A stretch of 64,000 bases of DNA from the NCBI GenBank assembly GCA_000828835.1, contig AP014633.1, positions 2,852,001 through 2,916,000 on the forward strand, given 5' to 3'. Of this stretch, positions 16,453-23,528 are shown one piece after another (within the stretch, counting starts at the first letter, position 1; each line of letters starts with the position of its first letter). The stretch is from Thioploca ingrica (GTDB taxonomy: Bacteria > Pseudomonadota > Gammaproteobacteria > Beggiatoales > Beggiatoaceae). Made by a program: the position numbers and the translations under genes. The notes under the pieces were generated by a model that was given only the letters and a program-made list of their open reading frames with translations, was not told where the DNA came from and did no database searches.

Positions 16453-16884
16453 ATGGAAGAAATAGCTGTTAAAACATCTCATTCCCCAACAAGCGTTAGT
16501 TTATTCCGCCATTTTGCTGCCCTATTTTACGACAGTTTATTGTTAGTTTCGGTACTTTTTTTTGCGACGGGATTGTTTCAATGGCTAACTCAAGGAAATA
16601 GCCCGCTTATTGTATTTAGAATCTATTTGTTGATGATTTGGTTTGGCTATTTTGCATGGCCTTGGTTACGGAGTGGACAGACATTAGGGATGAGTGCTTG
16701 GCGAATTCAGTTGCAAACCACGGACGGTAAGCCATTAAGTTGGCAACACGTTGGCCAACGTTTCTTAATGGCTATCGTATCATGGTTGGTTTTGGGAATG
16801 GGATTTTTTTGGGCGGTGGTGGATAAACAACACCGAACTTGGCATGACCTCGTTTCTCATACTCGGTTGGTTTATATTTCTTAA
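16453..16884 (+). CDS. RDD family membrane protein
   Basis: 143 residues with about three hydrophobic helices. The RDD signature pair is recognisable: FRHFAALFYDSLLLVS at the N-terminus (Arg and Asp of the name) and QTLGMSAWRIQLQTTDGKP followed by WHDLVSHTRLVYI at the end. The family is widespread. Some members have been linked to ion transport, but most have no known job and none is assigned here. It is divergent from clpS with about 230 bases between them. Confidence 0.88.
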   Translation: MEEIAVKTSHSPTSVSLFRHFAALFYDSLLLVSVLFFATGLFQWLTQGNSPLIVFRIYLLMIWFGYFAWPWLRSGQTLGMSAWRIQLQTTDGKPLSWQHVGQRFLMAIVSWLVLGMGFFWAVVDKQHRTWHDLVSHTRLVYIS

Positions 16885-16898
16885 TTTGAACCGGGTTT

Positions 16899-17362
16899 AG
16901 GTGTTCCGAAATAAAGGCAAATTCATCAAATTGCGCGAGAAACCTCGTCCTTCTCGTCCTTGAGGACGGGGAGGGATAGCGCATCGGCGGAAGCCGACCC
17001 AGTTCTCGCTCCTCTGGTGGTTAGGCTATCTCGGTAAGTAAAAATGAAGTGCTGGTCTTTCCCAGCGGTCCGGCGGTTAAGCCCTCCCCTTACGGGGCTA
17101 GTGACGCGGCGGTTTCCCGCCATTTCCCTTCAACAAGGCCACCCCGCGGCTGTGGCTAGCCACGACTAAAACCTTCGGGGCTTTACCTTTCCCCAGCATG
17201 ATTTAAGCCTTTTAGAGCAGCAGACTCAGGAAGCATCTGCTGGTAAGTTTTAACGACCTCGGGGTGGCGTAGCCACTCTGACTAGCGGCTTAGTCTGGTC
17301 AACCTCGCTTTGACAAGCTCCGCCCTTGAGGGCGGGGTAGTTGACTTACTTCGGAACATCCT
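16899..17362. mobile_element. GC-rich structured element with short terminal inverted repeats, possibly IS200/IS605-derived
   Basis: A roughly 460-base block much richer in GC than its surroundings, bounded by inverted TGTTCCGAA (16902-16910) and TTCGGAACA (17350-17358). Inside are strong hairpins: CGTCC-TTGA-GGACG at 16955-16968, GGCGG-TTTC-CCGCC at 17108-17121, and an 8-bp GC stem with the same TTGA loop at 17318-17337. Longer-range complements are CCACCCCG at 17139 and CGGGGTGG at 17260. The CCGCCC-TTGA-GGGCGG hairpin resembles the right end of IS200/IS605 elements carrying tnpB, and such ends encode guide RNAs. No tnpA or tnpB frame is present. It could be a non-autonomous relic or an unrelated structured RNA. 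Confidence 0.45.
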
Positions 17363-17381: not shown

Positions 17382-20300
17382 TTATAGCCAAGATTGGTTA
17401 CCACATTCTCCACCTGGCCAGACGAAAGATTCTAAGTCATCGTAATAAGTGCCCCAGAAAGTTCGAGTCGCTTTTTCTACACGCTCGCACTTTTGCGGAT
17501 CGTAAGCAAAAATAGTGGTTTGAGTGGGTTTATCATAATCAACACCGATAAGTAAAGAACCATTGGGTTGCATATCTAAACCTTCAATTTTCCCTTCGTT
17601 AGTCACATTCTCACAAGCCACTTTCAGTTCTTGAGTCTCTGGGTCATAAAACCACAAGGTTGTTCCGGTGGCAACATATAATTTGCTCCCTTGATAATCC
17701 CAAGCTACTCCCTCCATGGTAGGAGAATCAAATTGCTTGATCATTTCGCTATGACCGGTTTCGGGATCAATTTTAATGATACCATTCCATTTGTCAGCAC
17801 TGTTTTTGCCTTGATTTCTGCCCCATCCCCATAAGGTGTTATCTTTGGGATTTAAGCCTAATCCAGAGACTTTATTAAAGCCGGTGGGACCCACTGCAGA
17901 CACTTCACCGGTTTGTCGATTGATAGTGTAAAGATAGCCTCCCCGCGGTTGACCATCTACTTTAGCATTTTCACCCGCTGTACCATATAACAAGTTTGGA
18001 TCGGAAGGATCTAACGCTAACCCTTCAATGTCGTAACCTTTGTGGAGTGGACCTAAAGGTTCCATATCACCATCTAACCCACCGCTCAGATTGATTCTAA
18101 TCAATTGGGTATCGTTTATACCGGCATCATGAACAGCATAAACAATACAAGAAGGCGGTGCTACTCCAACGTAGAATGTTATCGGTTTAACTCCATTAAA
18201 AGTAAGCGTGTTATCTTTGGTTGAACGGTAACCAATATAAAGTTCAAACTGACCAGGATAAGGACTCAAATCACCTTCAAAAGCAGTTATTTTAACCGGT
18301 TGCTTCGGGTTGAATAACAAGGGTTGGGATTGAGCCGATTTTAATGACTGAAAGTCGAAATCCCACGGTGTCCACTGTTGTTGTTGGCCGTCATATTGTA
18401 AATAATAGGGAGTACCCTCTGCTGATTGGTAGTAAGCAATCATAATTAAATCAGCCGTTTGTGAAACTGAAGTTTGATTAGTAATCGTGGCCGAGATCTT
18501 GAGAATTTCAGCATCTAAGTAAGAAAGTAAAGCACCATTAGAACGTTTCTCACCCAAGGAAGTACGAATATCTTCTTCAAATTTGGCTGATAAATTCTCG
18601 GTTTGCTGACCCGTCTTTAGATCTAGAACTTTTACCGCTGGCGTCTGTGGTTCAGCTACTGGTTCATCTTTCTGACCCAAATTTTGTTGTGTACCGGAGG
18701 TCAGTTGGATACCGGTGGCCGCCATGGTCACATTATTGCCAATCTTTAATTTGCTCCCTTTCACATTGTCACCGATAACAACATTTTCAAGGTAACTATT
18801 AGCCACAATCGCCACATTATCTAACCGAGCCGGAGATTCTGGGTCGCCAATAATTTTACCTTGTAAATTACCACCGTTAAGTGAGGTATTCGGTGCTAAT
18901 TTGACGTCACGCACGGTCCCTCCTCTGGAAGTAATAACTTGACCTGACAGAGTACCGCCAGCGAGTGTCGTTCCTTGAAATTCGATATCAGCTAGGGTGC
19001 CTTGATTCTTCACTTTTTGGCCAATAATGGCATTTTCAACATAGCCATCTTTAGCAACAGTGAGTGAATCTAAACGTGCCGGTGATTGAGCATCTCCTTG
19101 AATCTGACCGTGTAATTCGCCTCCTTTGAGTTGAGTACTGGCACCGAGCGACACATTTTCAAGGATACTACCACTCGCATTGATTTGACCTTCTAAATTA
19201 CCGCCTACCAAATGAGCTTGATTTAATTCCACATCACTGATAGTTCCGTTATTAATAATTTCATTGTTCAATACGCCACCCGTTAAGCGGCTATCTGCTT
19301 GTACCGTGATATCAGATACTTTACCTAAATTAATGACGGTACCCGCTAAGGTGGCATTGGTCAGTTTACCTTGTTCATTAATCGTTATATTTTCCAATAC
19401 TTGTCCATTGCCATTAATTTTACCAGTAATAAAAGTATCAGTAACAAAATGTGGCTGTTCAGCAAACGTAACATCAGCTGAGAATTTGAATCCTGCTGGT
19501 ACACTTACATTGCTACCAATTCTCACATTCTCGAGTTGGGTATCCGGCGTAATAATGACATTTTCTAATAGGGGTCGAGAATCACCTTTACCGGTTCCTT
19601 TAATATAACCTTGCAAGCGACCGCCATCTAGCTGAGTATTTTCAGCTAATACCACATCTTGGATAATTCCACCACTGACATTCTCGATATGTCCGGTGAG
19701 AGTACCACCGGTTAATTGGGTACCTCTAAATTGAATATCTGTTATCGTACCTTGATTGGTAATTTGACCGCCGACTTTGCCGCCCATAAGCGTGCTGTGC
19801 TCTGCTATAGTCACATCGCGGATAACGCCATTTGCCGGACTTTCATTCTCAATGGTACCGGCTAAAATGCCACCTTCTAAACTAGCACCTTTAAATTTCA
19901 CATCCCGGATTTCACCATGATTAAGGACATATCCAGTGATATTACCCCCCGTTAAGGTACTTTCCGGTTGGAGTACGAAATTGCCTATCCAACCATTATT
20001 AACGATGGTACCCTGTAATATAGCTGCAGAGATATTACCTTCTTCACCAATAGTGATATCTTTACCCGTTTGCCAATTTAAATGACAAACAACATTAATA
20101 ACCGAAGTCAGCGGACAAAGCATAATATCTGCTGGGGTCGTTTTTATGGTAGCCGGCAGTTTTTCCACACGAATAGTTGCCGTTGGTTGTGTTCCTAGCG
20201 TTGCTCCACCCGTCGGACTAGCTAAGTGAATTAAAAAGTAATCAGTATCAGTAAAGTGTTCTGGTGCAATCGTGATTGCAACCGTTTTATTGCTGTCATC

Positions 20301-23300
20301 ACCCGCTGACCATTGTAAAGTCCCTTTCAGGTTATCAATCTGAACACCTTGATCATCAACAGTGTAATAATTCACTTCGATTTTGCCTTCAGTTCCTTCA
20401 GTGCGCGTTACTGTCAGGGTTAGATCACTTGCTTGTGAATTAACCTTGAATTCAGTTTGAGCAAATTGTAACTGTCCAGCATGGGTTACAACATTTGACG
20501 TAAAAGTAATTTTGCAGACTTTATTTGCATCCAACTTAACATGACCCTGTGCATCACAATCACCACCAATTTCACTTAAACTAAAACCTTTAGCTGACGT
20601 TGCTTCTAGCGTGACTTCTGTATCGTTAGGATAGCTCGCACTACAAGTGGTATTGGAACAATCTAGTCCTTTGGGTTGACTGGTAACGGTGCCAGTACCT
20701 ATAATTTCTAGGGTCAAGATTTTTTGGTTTGGAGTAGTAGTAGGCACTACCGGTTCAAAGGTAGCAGTACAAGTTTTATTTTGACTCATATTGACGACCA
20801 CGGTAGCTTCAGTGCCGCTACAATCACCCGCCCAGTGAGTGAAAATTGAACCTTGTTTAGGAATAGCCGTTAGGGTAACGGGGGTTTCCTTTGCATAGGA
20901 GAAACAGTCGGTACCACATTTTTCAACTCTGACATTACCGGATAATTGGGGTGAAATTAAACCACTGCCGCTACCGGCGGTTGCTACCGTTAAATTAACT
21001 AATTGGTTTAAATCAACCCCAGCGCAACTTAAATTGTATTTAATAACCGAATAACTTGAATCATTGCTGGTTAAATTCAACACGGCAGTTTGTGTACCTA
21101 AGATAGCTGGGGTACATTGCATTGTCAGCGTTTGAGCCGGAGCATTATTCGCGATGATTAAAGGGAAAGTAGGACTCTTTAAGCTAAAACTATTGGGATG
21201 AGTTCCTGTAATTGGAATGGTGGCCAAATCTACTGTTAAGTCTTTAGAGCCAACCTCTTTAATTTCAAGCGTTTTACTGATAGGAGTACCGACCGGACCC
21301 GCGCCAAAGTCTATCGTACCACCGGGTAACACCGGCGAGGAACTATAACCGGGAGCGGCTACGCCAATACATTGTAAATTATAACTTACTTCCGGCAGCG
21401 TTAAATCGTTGGTCGTAAAACGGACTCGGTCAGTATAGGTGCCTTCTTGTGACGGCTGACATCGGAAGGTAACCAGCACACCGGGTTCACCATCCCGAAT
21501 TGTTAAATTGGGAAAGAAAGAAGGACTAACTAAGGTAAATTCTTTTAACAGGGGTAAATCGGCTAATTGTACTACTAAAGGAAAATTACCAATTTCTTTA
21601 ATAGTAAAAGTTTTATCACGGGATGTTTCTATCGTTACCTTTCCAAAGTCAAGCGTATCACCAGGAAAAACGGGGGTAGAATGATAACGTGCTCCAGCCG
21701 CCGGTGGACCTCCTTTACAAGTCAAGTCATAAACGGGTTCTGGATAATTAACAGCATTGGTCGTTAACTTTAATTTAGCAGTGTATATTTTGCCCTCTTC
21801 GTGTGGTTGACATTGCGCAGTAATCGCTTGGCTTTCACCACTATCATTGGCAATGGTGAGCGGAAAAGTAATTGCAACTAAGCTAAAAACCGCTTCAGCA
21901 TCATCAAGTAAAGTAGCCGACTTGATTTCTAAATCAGCCGTGCCGATTTCTTGAATTTCAAGCGTTTTTTCGCCTTCGGTTTCAATCGGTACTTCGCCAA
22001 AATCGAGTGTTCCACTGGGTGCAATGGGCTTGGAATCGTAAAGGGGTTGTACACCAGTACAGGTTAATTGATAGGTTACTTGATGTTCGATAGGCTGCGT
22101 ATTAGGAGTAGGCGACGTATTAGGATCAGTATTATATAAAATTAAAGTAGTAGTTAATTTCTTTTCAGTGGTTGGTTTACATTGAAACTTAATCTGTGTC
22201 GACTCGTTTTCTCCAAGCGTAATCGGGAGAGAAGCCTCCATAGTAAAATTATCAGTGATAAGAGTTTCTTGTCCCCTCGATAGAACTTCACTGTTTAAAT
22301 CTAATATTAAATCACTGCTTCCCTTATTTTGAATAGTCAGAATTTTTTCTGCCATTGAACCAAGTAATACTTTACCAAAATCAAGAGTACCGTTAGGAGG
22401 AACCGGTGTAGAATCATAAACAGCCGATTTACCGGTACAACTCAAAGGATATGTCACTGTTGGAATCTTTGGATCATTCGTAGTTAACTGCAAGGTAGCC
22501 TTATATACACCTTTATCCTTTTGAGGATGACATTCTATGATAACCAATTTATCCTCACCACTTGCAAGTGATAAAGGAAACGATAGATTTTCACTCAGTG
22601 GAAAGATGTTTTTATCTGTACCTGTAATAGATAGTGATTTTACTGTTAGGGGTAAGTTACCCTTATTTGTAACTGTGAAATTCCTCATCCCCCTCTCATC
22701 AGGCCACCATATCCACTCAACTTCTCCGAAATCAAGTGGTTGCCCAGGGGTTGGATCAGAACTATATTCAGGCGCTAACCCGGTGTAGCTAAAAGTGTAC
22801 TGCACACTACTTTTATCCGGGTCATTAGTCTCTAGCTTTAAAGTTGTAGAAAAATCCCCATGAGTTTGGGGAGTCAATTTGATTTTAAGTTCTTGCGTAC
22901 TTCCTTTAGAGATAGTTAAAGGTAAACTTGTCAAGATAGCAATTTCATCTACATTACCATTTGAAATAGAAGGATTTTTTATTTCCAGAGAATTATTGCC
23001 AATATTTGTAATTTGAATTGTCGTTTCACCGACTTGCCCAACGTTAATTTGGCCTACGTTTATGGTAGCGGTATTAGAAGAATCTAAAAGAGGAGTTGAT
23101 TGATAATCGGGTGCGGGTGATTGTATTTGACCGTTCAAACACCATTTTGTTATCGTCACTGGTGATGATGATGTATCGGTATTATTATTAGTTATAGCTA
23201 AAGTCCAAGTACCCTTAATTGGGCTACCAATAAATGTACTTAGGGATTGGATATCTTGTCCATTAAGATTAAGTGAAAGATTAGAAAAACTAGAAAGATC

Positions 23301-23528
23301 AGGTGTTATGGTTATACTTAAATTATTAATAATATAATCAGGTTTATCAATAATTTGAATAACTGAAGAAACTGAAGATGGAGGAGGTGTTCCTGTTGGT
23401 ATTGATAAAGAATCAGTATTACATTGAATCTGTCCATCAAAAGACTTTGCAAAAACAAAGGTGGTGTTTAAAAAAAACAGACTAATTATTAATCCTATTA
23501 AACTAGCTTGTATGGGTTTCGGATACAT
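17382..23528 (-). CDS. Giant secreted mosaic protein: P-domain, choice-of-anchor/ASH repeats, InlB-type repeats, Calx-beta, beta-solenoid and beta-propeller
   Basis: 2048 residues with a Sec signal peptide (SLIGLIISLFFLNTTFVFAKS). Regions in order: a proprotein-convertase P-domain-like module (about 35-135), then six or seven ASH/choice-of-anchor-D repeats of about 105 residues with LDFGEV and LTTNDP motifs (about 160-860). Next come two divergent bacterial/InlB-B-type repeats (GSIFTHWAGDCSGTEA) and a Calx-beta domain. A long solenoid follows, built from GGxLxGxIxNxGxIxDV units (about 1135-1610). The C-terminus looks like a beta-propeller (YDIEGLALDPSDPNLLYGT onward). A GAGG stretch precedes the ATG. 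No anchor or enzyme motif is visible; a surface or extracellular structural role is inferred. Confidence 0.88.
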   Translation of the reverse strand: MYPKPIQASLIGLIISLFFLNTTFVFAKSFDGQIQCNTDSLSIPTGTPPPSSVSSVIQIIDKPDYIINNLSITITPDLSSFSNLSLNLNGQDIQSLSTFIGSPIKGTWTLAITNNNTDTSSSPVTITKWCLNGQIQSPAPDYQSTPLLDSSNTATINVGQINVGQVGETTIQITNIGNNSLEIKNPSISNGNVDEIAILTSLPLTISKGSTQELKIKLTPQTHGDFSTTLKLETNDPDKSSVQYTFSYTGLAPEYSSDPTPGQPLDFGEVEWIWWPDERGMRNFTVTNKGNLPLTVKSLSITGTDKNIFPLSENLSFPLSLASGEDKLVIIECHPQKDKGVYKATLQLTTNDPKIPTVTYPLSCTGKSAVYDSTPVPPNGTLDFGKVLLGSMAEKILTIQNKGSSDLILDLNSEVLSRGQETLITDNFTMEASLPITLGENESTQIKFQCKPTTEKKLTTTLILYNTDPNTSPTPNTQPIEHQVTYQLTCTGVQPLYDSKPIAPSGTLDFGEVPIETEGEKTLEIQEIGTADLEIKSATLLDDAEAVFSLVAITFPLTIANDSGESQAITAQCQPHEEGKIYTAKLKLTTNAVNYPEPVYDLTCKGGPPAAGARYHSTPVFPGDTLDFGKVTIETSRDKTFTIKEIGNFPLVVQLADLPLLKEFTLVSPSFFPNLTIRDGEPGVLVTFRCQPSQEGTYTDRVRFTTNDLTLPEVSYNLQCIGVAAPGYSSSPVLPGGTIDFGAGPVGTPISKTLEIKEVGSKDLTVDLATIPITGTHPNSFSLKSPTFPLIIANNAPAQTLTMQCTPAILGTQTAVLNLTSNDSSYSVIKYNLSCAGVDLNQLVNLTVATAGSGSGLISPQLSGNVRVEKCGTDCFSYAKETPVTLTAIPKQGSIFTHWAGDCSGTEATVVVNMSQNKTCTATFEPVVPTTTPNQKILTLEIIGTGTVTSQPKGLDCSNTTCSASYPNDTEVTLEATSAKGFSLSEIGGDCDAQGHVKLDANKVCKITFTSNVVTHAGQLQFAQTEFKVNSQASDLTLTVTRTEGTEGKIEVNYYTVDDQGVQIDNLKGTLQWSAGDDSNKTVAITIAPEHFTDTDYFLIHLASPTGGATLGTQPTATIRVEKLPATIKTTPADIMLCPLTSVINVVCHLNWQTGKDITIGEEGNISAAILQGTIVNNGWIGNFVLQPESTLTGGNITGYVLNHGEIRDVKFKGASLEGGILAGTIENESPANGVIRDVTIAEHSTLMGGKVGGQITNQGTITDIQFRGTQLTGGTLTGHIENVSGGIIQDVVLAENTQLDGGRLQGYIKGTGKGDSRPLLENVIITPDTQLENVRIGSNVSVPAGFKFSADVTFAEQPHFVTDTFITGKINGNGQVLENITINEQGKLTNATLAGTVINLGKVSDITVQADSRLTGGVLNNEIINNGTISDVELNQAHLVGGNLEGQINASGSILENVSLGASTQLKGGELHGQIQGDAQSPARLDSLTVAKDGYVENAIIGQKVKNQGTLADIEFQGTTLAGGTLSGQVITSRGGTVRDVKLAPNTSLNGGNLQGKIIGDPESPARLDNVAIVANSYLENVVIGDNVKGSKLKIGNNVTMAATGIQLTSGTQQNLGQKDEPVAEPQTPAVKVLDLKTGQQTENLSAKFEEDIRTSLGEKRSNGALLSYLDAEILKISATITNQTSVSQTADLIMIAYYQSAEGTPYYLQYDGQQQQWTPWDFDFQSLKSAQSQPLLFNPKQPVKITAFEGDLSPYPGQFELYIGYRSTKDNTLTFNGVKPITFYVGVAPPSCIVYAVHDAGINDTQLIRINLSGGLDGDMEPLGPLHKGYDIEGLALDPSDPNLLYGTAGENAKVDGQPRGGYLYTINRQTGEVSAVGPTGFNKVSGLGLNPKDNTLWGWGRNQGKNSADKWNGIIKIDPETGHSEMIKQFDSPTMEGVAWDYQGSKLYVATGTTLWFYDPETQELKVACENVTNEGKIEGLDMQPNGSLLIGVDYDKPTQTTIFAYDPQKCERVEKATRTFWGTYYDDLESFVWPGGECGNQSWL

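Follow-up and report, generated by a model that had tools for sequence, protein, structure and literature searches.

An ORF-less HEARO element in Thioploca ingrica and its possible role as a guide served in trans by IscB

In the Thioploca ingrica DNA studied here, the GC content rises from ~0.35-0.44 upstream to 0.55-0.58 over positions 16900-17300 and then drops back (positions refer to the window, i.e. the whole stretch of 64,000 nucleotides that was analysed). This block, which contains no ORF of note, raises the question of what kind of element it is and what keeps it in the genome.

Identity and architecture of the element

The block can be assigned with near certainty to an ORF-less HEARO element. 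Its scaffold matches the Rfam model RF02033 over the full length (model positions 1-211) at 100.5 bits, above the curated gathering score of 83 (E 1.7e-19). HEARO RNA is the guide RNA (omegaRNA) of IscB nucleases (PMC9755519). Rfam assigns it without regard to the ORF, so membership holds for the RNA and fails for a complete IscB locus: an HNH endonuclease/IscB ORF is absent directly downstream of the scaffold in the window copy and in 15 others, and present in 2 of the 18 copies found in the genome. The window copy, with no intact iscB inside the element, is therefore not a complete IscB OMEGA locus. It retains both element ends and the full HEARO/omegaRNA scaffold, and is best explained as an IscB-branch member of the IS200/IS605-like elements that is non-autonomous and has no ORF. 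The RNA strand (17361-17051, minus) folds at -127 kcal/mol vs -112 kcal/mol for dinucleotide shuffles (z = -2.93; 1 of 100 shuffles is equally good). No sigma-70-like promoter for the RNA was found in the region. The features of the locus are as follows:

16927..17345, minus (RNA sense): ORF-less HEARO/IscB omegaRNA element, 419 bp, from the alignment of 18 copies and the orthologous empty site in the congeneric genome G001
17119..17345, minus: HEARO (IscB omegaRNA) scaffold, full-length match to the Rfam model
17293..17345, minus: 5' terminal stem with TTGA-loop hairpin, z = -3.56 as ssDNA
17320-17335: TTGA-loop hairpin CCGCCC-TTGA-GGGCGG
17086-17097: hairpin CCCC-TTAC-GGGG
17051..17066, minus: terminator-like hairpin GCTGG-GAAAGA-CCAGC with a T-rich tail, in place of iscB, from a terminator scan
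16927..17050, minus: RE-like 3' end domain, which holds the second TTGA-loop hairpin and is common to iscB-bearing elements
16955-16968: TTGA-loop hairpin CGTCC-TTGA-GGACG
16923..16926, minus: ATGA target/TAM tetranucleotide at the element 3' end, invariant in 18/18 copies
17346..17361, minus: predicted 16-nt guide GGATGTTCCGAAGTAA, derived from the host flank, on the 5' side of the scaffold, where IscB omegaRNAs have the guide
16902..16910, plus: left arm of a host palindrome, TGTTCCGAA, outside the element, uninterrupted at the G001 empty site
17350..17358, plus: right arm of the host palindrome, TTCGGAACA, outside the element, supplying most of the guide

In the alignment, the element begins with GTCAACTACCCC (window 17345, minus strand) and ends with GCGCAATTTG, after which ATGA follows in every copy (window 16926-16923, minus). 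The same ends are found in all 18 copies, the insertion is precise beside the fixed ATGA (18/18) and without target duplication, and the junctions agree with the empty sites. Subterminal hairpins are present at both ends, as in IS200/IS605-type elements. The 5' terminal stem probably serves both as the transposase-recognised end and as the first omegaRNA helix. The 3' end domain aligns with the right ends of the two iscB-bearing elements of the genome (L043/L044), and with those of Chromatiales IscB elements it shares 83-88% identity over 52-63 bp. Integration before ATGA or GTGA was reportedly noted when HEARO was discovered.

Where HEARO RNAs are otherwise followed by an HNH/IscB ORF, 16 copies here have a short conserved structured segment, which carries the terminator-like hairpin. 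The hairpin is present in all ORF-less copies, with a single base altered in one of them, and its stem (helix 15) is preserved in 79 of the 80 cells that it occupies in the alignment of these 16 copies; the terminator scan is weak alone, as shuffles yield 0.8 such sites per region by chance. In the window copy, 9 bp of the 3' hairpin are duplicated in tandem (region 16941-16968), a change absent from the other 15 ORF-less copies, and 6 nt of one helix are missing. In view of these two changes it may be decaying.

An earlier note on this DNA had described a GC-rich block with two TTGA-loop hairpins near opposite ends and a third strong hairpin. The block and all three hairpins are real; the extent needs correction, to 16927-17345 for the element proper.

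The empty site, the palindrome and the predicted guide

The TGTTCCGAA inverted repeats (16902-16910 and 17350-17358), previously proposed as the boundaries of the block, lie outside the element and were rejected as its ends. At the orthologous site of G001, aligned collinearly over 801 bp at 91%, the element is absent and the sequence reads ..GGATGTTCCGAAGTAA|CTGAATTTGTCTTTATTTCGGAACACC... Because the repeats are intact at this element-free site, they represent a pre-existing host palindrome that the element has split. The genes on either side of the palindrome (16453-16884, plus; 17382-23528, minus) converge on it.

G001 contains no HEARO copy at all. Further sites of the element are also empty there (L028, L030, L034, L037, L039, L040 and others), and the junctions are exact in most of them. 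At two G001 loci (L094, ~1233-1516; L097, ~1234-1500) an unrelated extra sequence of ~265-283 bp is observed at or adjoining the orthologous place of the element.

In IscB omegaRNAs the guide of ~17 nt is a 5' extension of the RNA, with the TAM on the 3' side of the target (PMC9640706). The predicted guide of the window copy matches the G001 empty allele at 16 of 16 bases, followed by CTGA. The predicted guides of eight sites match the G001 empty alleles at 14-16 of 16 bases, and the TAM position is occupied by ATGA in 6 of the 8, by CTGA at the window's site and by ATAA at one; as G001 is a different species, it serves here as a proxy for the empty allele, not as a proven target. As a sequence relation, this is the arrangement of an IscB OMEGA guide, with the guide taken from the 5' flank and the TAM found 3' of the target at empty sites. 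In its own genome, with up to 3 mismatches allowed, the window guide finds its own locus, where GTCA replaces NTGA at the TAM position, and no second target. GTCA vs NTGA would provide the discrimination between self and empty site that is expected of a homing-type guide.

Copies, iscB partners and compensatory changes

The genome, searched as a single contig of 4.81 Mb, contains 22 places detected by DNA similarity and 18 copies detected by the HEARO model (17 above the cut-off and one at 80.8 bits), along with two element remnants (L045, L046). Sixteen of the 18, the window copy included, are ORF-less, 407-427 bp long, with the conserved 3' domain instead of iscB. In the other two an intact iscB directly follows the HEARO RNA. 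These are the only RRXRR/iscB genes of the genome; both have uninterrupted frames, and both products carry the RRXRR/RuvC and HNH domains. The PDB relatives of the one IscB that was searched are mostly named IscB, and the nearest named IscBs come from purple sulfur gammaproteobacteria. In its 3' hairpins the scaffold of the ORF-less copies departs from that of the two copies with iscB, and IscB may therefore not load both kinds equally. Near one iscB element (L044:7921-9618) a replicative helicase-like ORF with apparent intein-type insertions was recognised by eye.

Compensatory changes were counted in two alignments. With the Rfam-derived structure on all 18 copies, 89% of the cells are paired and 23 of the 73 pairs show two-sided changes, a number reached by none of 500 shuffles (slid controls give 2-5). 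In the 16 ORF-less copies alone, folded with RNAalifold, two-sided compensatory changes are found in 28 of the 112 consensus pairs (0/500 shuffles; slid controls 2-6); this structure was derived from the same alignment, which biases the percentage of paired cells upward and makes the two-sided counts the stronger evidence. The changes are located mostly in internal helices and not at the ends, with A3 helices 4, 5, 7, 8 and 10 accounting for 21 of the 28 pairs. Helix 14 (columns 272-284), situated within the iscB-replacing segment that is found only in ORF-less copies, also covaries, from GC/GC to AU/CG in six copies. Because of the 28 two-sided pairs and the absence of comparable shuffles (0/500), the RNA structure is considered to be maintained in the ORF-less copies.

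For the 16 ORF-less copies (alignment A3), the scaffold (columns 1-226) and the 3' tail (271-433) yield conflicting trees, which suggests that copies have recombined or undergone gene conversion. Some of the covariation could thus have been imported from iscB-bearing elements and not have arisen in the ORF-less copies.

The earlier note had considered that the block might be a non-autonomous element and yet give rise to a structured RNA, a view to be abandoned if no other copies, no conserved folding and no match to a tnpB right end were found. The first two of these points do not apply. With 18 copies, 16 of them ORF-less, the HEARO match and the strong two-sided covariation, the sequences speak in favour of such an element.

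Proposed mechanism, alternatives and related systems

The identity of the element, its copies, ends and empty sites, the compensatory evolution, the intact iscB genes and the guide-target/TAM relation are read directly from the DNA; transcription, loading in trans, cleavage and homing, as well as the kind of transposase at work, are inferred. The mechanism that we favour, and consider somewhat more probable than all others together, is retention of the element as a guide served in trans. A Y1-type transposase would mobilise the element ends in trans. The scaffold would be transcribed from the host flank, so that the ~16 bases upstream of the insertion become the guide, and the IscB encoded by one of the intact genes would load the ORF-less RNA. 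The complex would cut alleles that keep the guide sequence together with [A/C]TGA, i.e. the empty site, while the occupied locus would escape cutting by having GTCA in place of the TAM. Repair off the occupied copy would then restore or spread the element. We prefer this mechanism because of the covariation, the intact IscB partners, the guide/TAM logic and the analogy with TnpB, for which omegaRNA-guided retention, or gene drive, of IS200/IS605 elements has been described (PMC11870625). That system has the same flank-derived guide, a target with a TAM at the empty site and no TAM at the occupied site; here, in contrast, the nuclease is IscB and the guide element is without a nuclease gene of its own.

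No cognate transposase is encoded in the element, and the Y1 tnpA loci elsewhere in the genome, considered as donors of the element ends, were rejected as they share only chance matches of 9-13 bases with them. The lack of an end-matched transposase is common in the HEARO group, in which few nucleases adjoin TnpA (PMC9755519). Counted against the mechanism is the absence of any HEARO copy from G001, so that spread by homing is not observed.

The main rival is a DNA-only, MITE-like parasite, the ends of which are recognised by a transposase while the HEARO scaffold is an inert passenger unused by IscB. The ends are indeed the most invariant part of the element and form DNA hairpins, the elements are without an ORF, and the omegaRNA overlaps one end and would thus be partly kept anyway. 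Selection on the ends only, however, predicts no internal covariation, and most of the two-sided pairs are found in internal helices far from the ends, in copies without iscB. The prediction would change if recombination with iscB elements had reseeded the copies repeatedly, a scenario that fits the discordant core and tail trees. On balance, we regard a DNA-only parasite as unlikely, with some weight left to it. MITE-like IS200/IS605 derivatives are similarly short and ORF-less, with the ends kept and mobilisation presumed to occur in trans, but the element described here keeps, besides the ends, a complete covarying guide RNA. A different descent, from a tnpB right end together with the guide RNA encoded there, had been raised in the earlier note. 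The resemblance to IS200/IS605 ends holds, with TTGA-loop subterminal hairpins, and five tnpB-type zinc-ribbon matches are present in the genome; the family, on the other hand, is IscB/HEARO and not TnpB, judging by the Rfam match and by the cis-linked gene of the full copies. Between the block and the three tnpB loci compared, the matches (10-18 bases) do not exceed chance, and a tnpB leftover can practically be dismissed.

The positions of the insertions bring in a regulatory alternative. In 9 of the 18 cases the element lies exactly between an upstream leader and the ATG of the downstream gene (L037:2004, L039:2006, L031, L033, L034, L036, L028, L029 and L043), compared with 14.6% of the ATGA sites available outside coding sequence in the window (binomial p ~4e-4); this background is rough, as it covers the window only and uses approximate gene calls. 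The genes downstream are VgrG-like, DnaJ-domain, DUF945, sulfotransferase, AccD-like (at L037), ferredoxin-like (nuoI-like, at L039, probably NuoI itself), DUF4124 and two others, and some of them are probably essential. In the reconstructed junctions a Shine-Dalgarno-like AAGGA is often seen upstream, where the element parts it from the start codon. The copies at start codons might function as 5' leaders, or might guide repression of the gene downstream in the manner of the nuclease-dead relatives of TnpB, and be kept for that; the exact placement before real genes, the accD-like, nuoI-like and vgrG genes among them, agrees with such co-option. Nonetheless, the window copy is found between convergent genes with no start codon involved, both IscBs, with their RRXRR/RuvC and HNH domains, are not obvious repressors, and no orthologous copies are kept in the congener. 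The preference for ATGA together with avoidance of coding sequence could also account for part of the bias. Regulatory co-option is thus considered improbable, more so than the DNA-only parasite.

Guidance in trans remains the preferred reading. Among the known systems closest to the element are the IscB elements of Chromatiales. Those of Allochromatium humboldtianum (L056/L059) share the 5' end GTCAACTACCCC, the 3' end hairpin and the GCGCAA..ATGA junction, and start-codon insertion is found there too; they differ in being ~1.7 kb long and in carrying iscB, which is 62-65% identical to iscB here. IscB elements of Allochromatium, Rhabdochromatium and Lamprobacter have the same 3' end, followed by ATGA or GTGA.

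HEARO RNA, IscB and non-autonomous IS elements were already known. Apparently new are the dominance of guide-only copies with a 3' domain of their own, the bias towards start codons and what looks like a second origin within the family. It is possible, and we propose it tentatively, that the ORF-less omegaRNA element is a recurrent guide-only life form, which by exchanging iscB for a terminator becomes a free-standing gene for a guide RNA and parasitises IscB in trans, with at least two origins within a single bacterial family. Many self-programming guides across the chromosome would in that case share one nuclease. IscB is the likely ancestor of Cas9. A genome in which ORF-less copies guide a few IscBs in trans would resemble an array of dispersed guides with one effector, and would thereby stand logically between the self-homing OMEGA elements and CRISPR-Cas9, in which effector and guides are separate. 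The 16:2 ratio, the intact partners and the element-free congener make the idea of guidance in trans directly testable.

The second origin concerns HEARO copies without an ORF in G035 (L078, L082, L086, L090) and G031 (L069, L077), which represent other genera of the family. As in T. ingrica, a terminator-like hairpin takes the place of iscB behind the scaffold, and in these copies it is much stronger, with 10-11 pairs. The copies differ in belonging to another HEARO subfamily, with unrelated ends and scores below the Rfam gathering score; no ATGA junction was seen at them, and they apparently have an independent origin. Most HEARO-rich relatives keep iscB, by counts 5/5 in G003, 14/18 in G018 and 12/16 in G017. 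The four ORF-less copies of G035 are near-identical and have thus spread recently.
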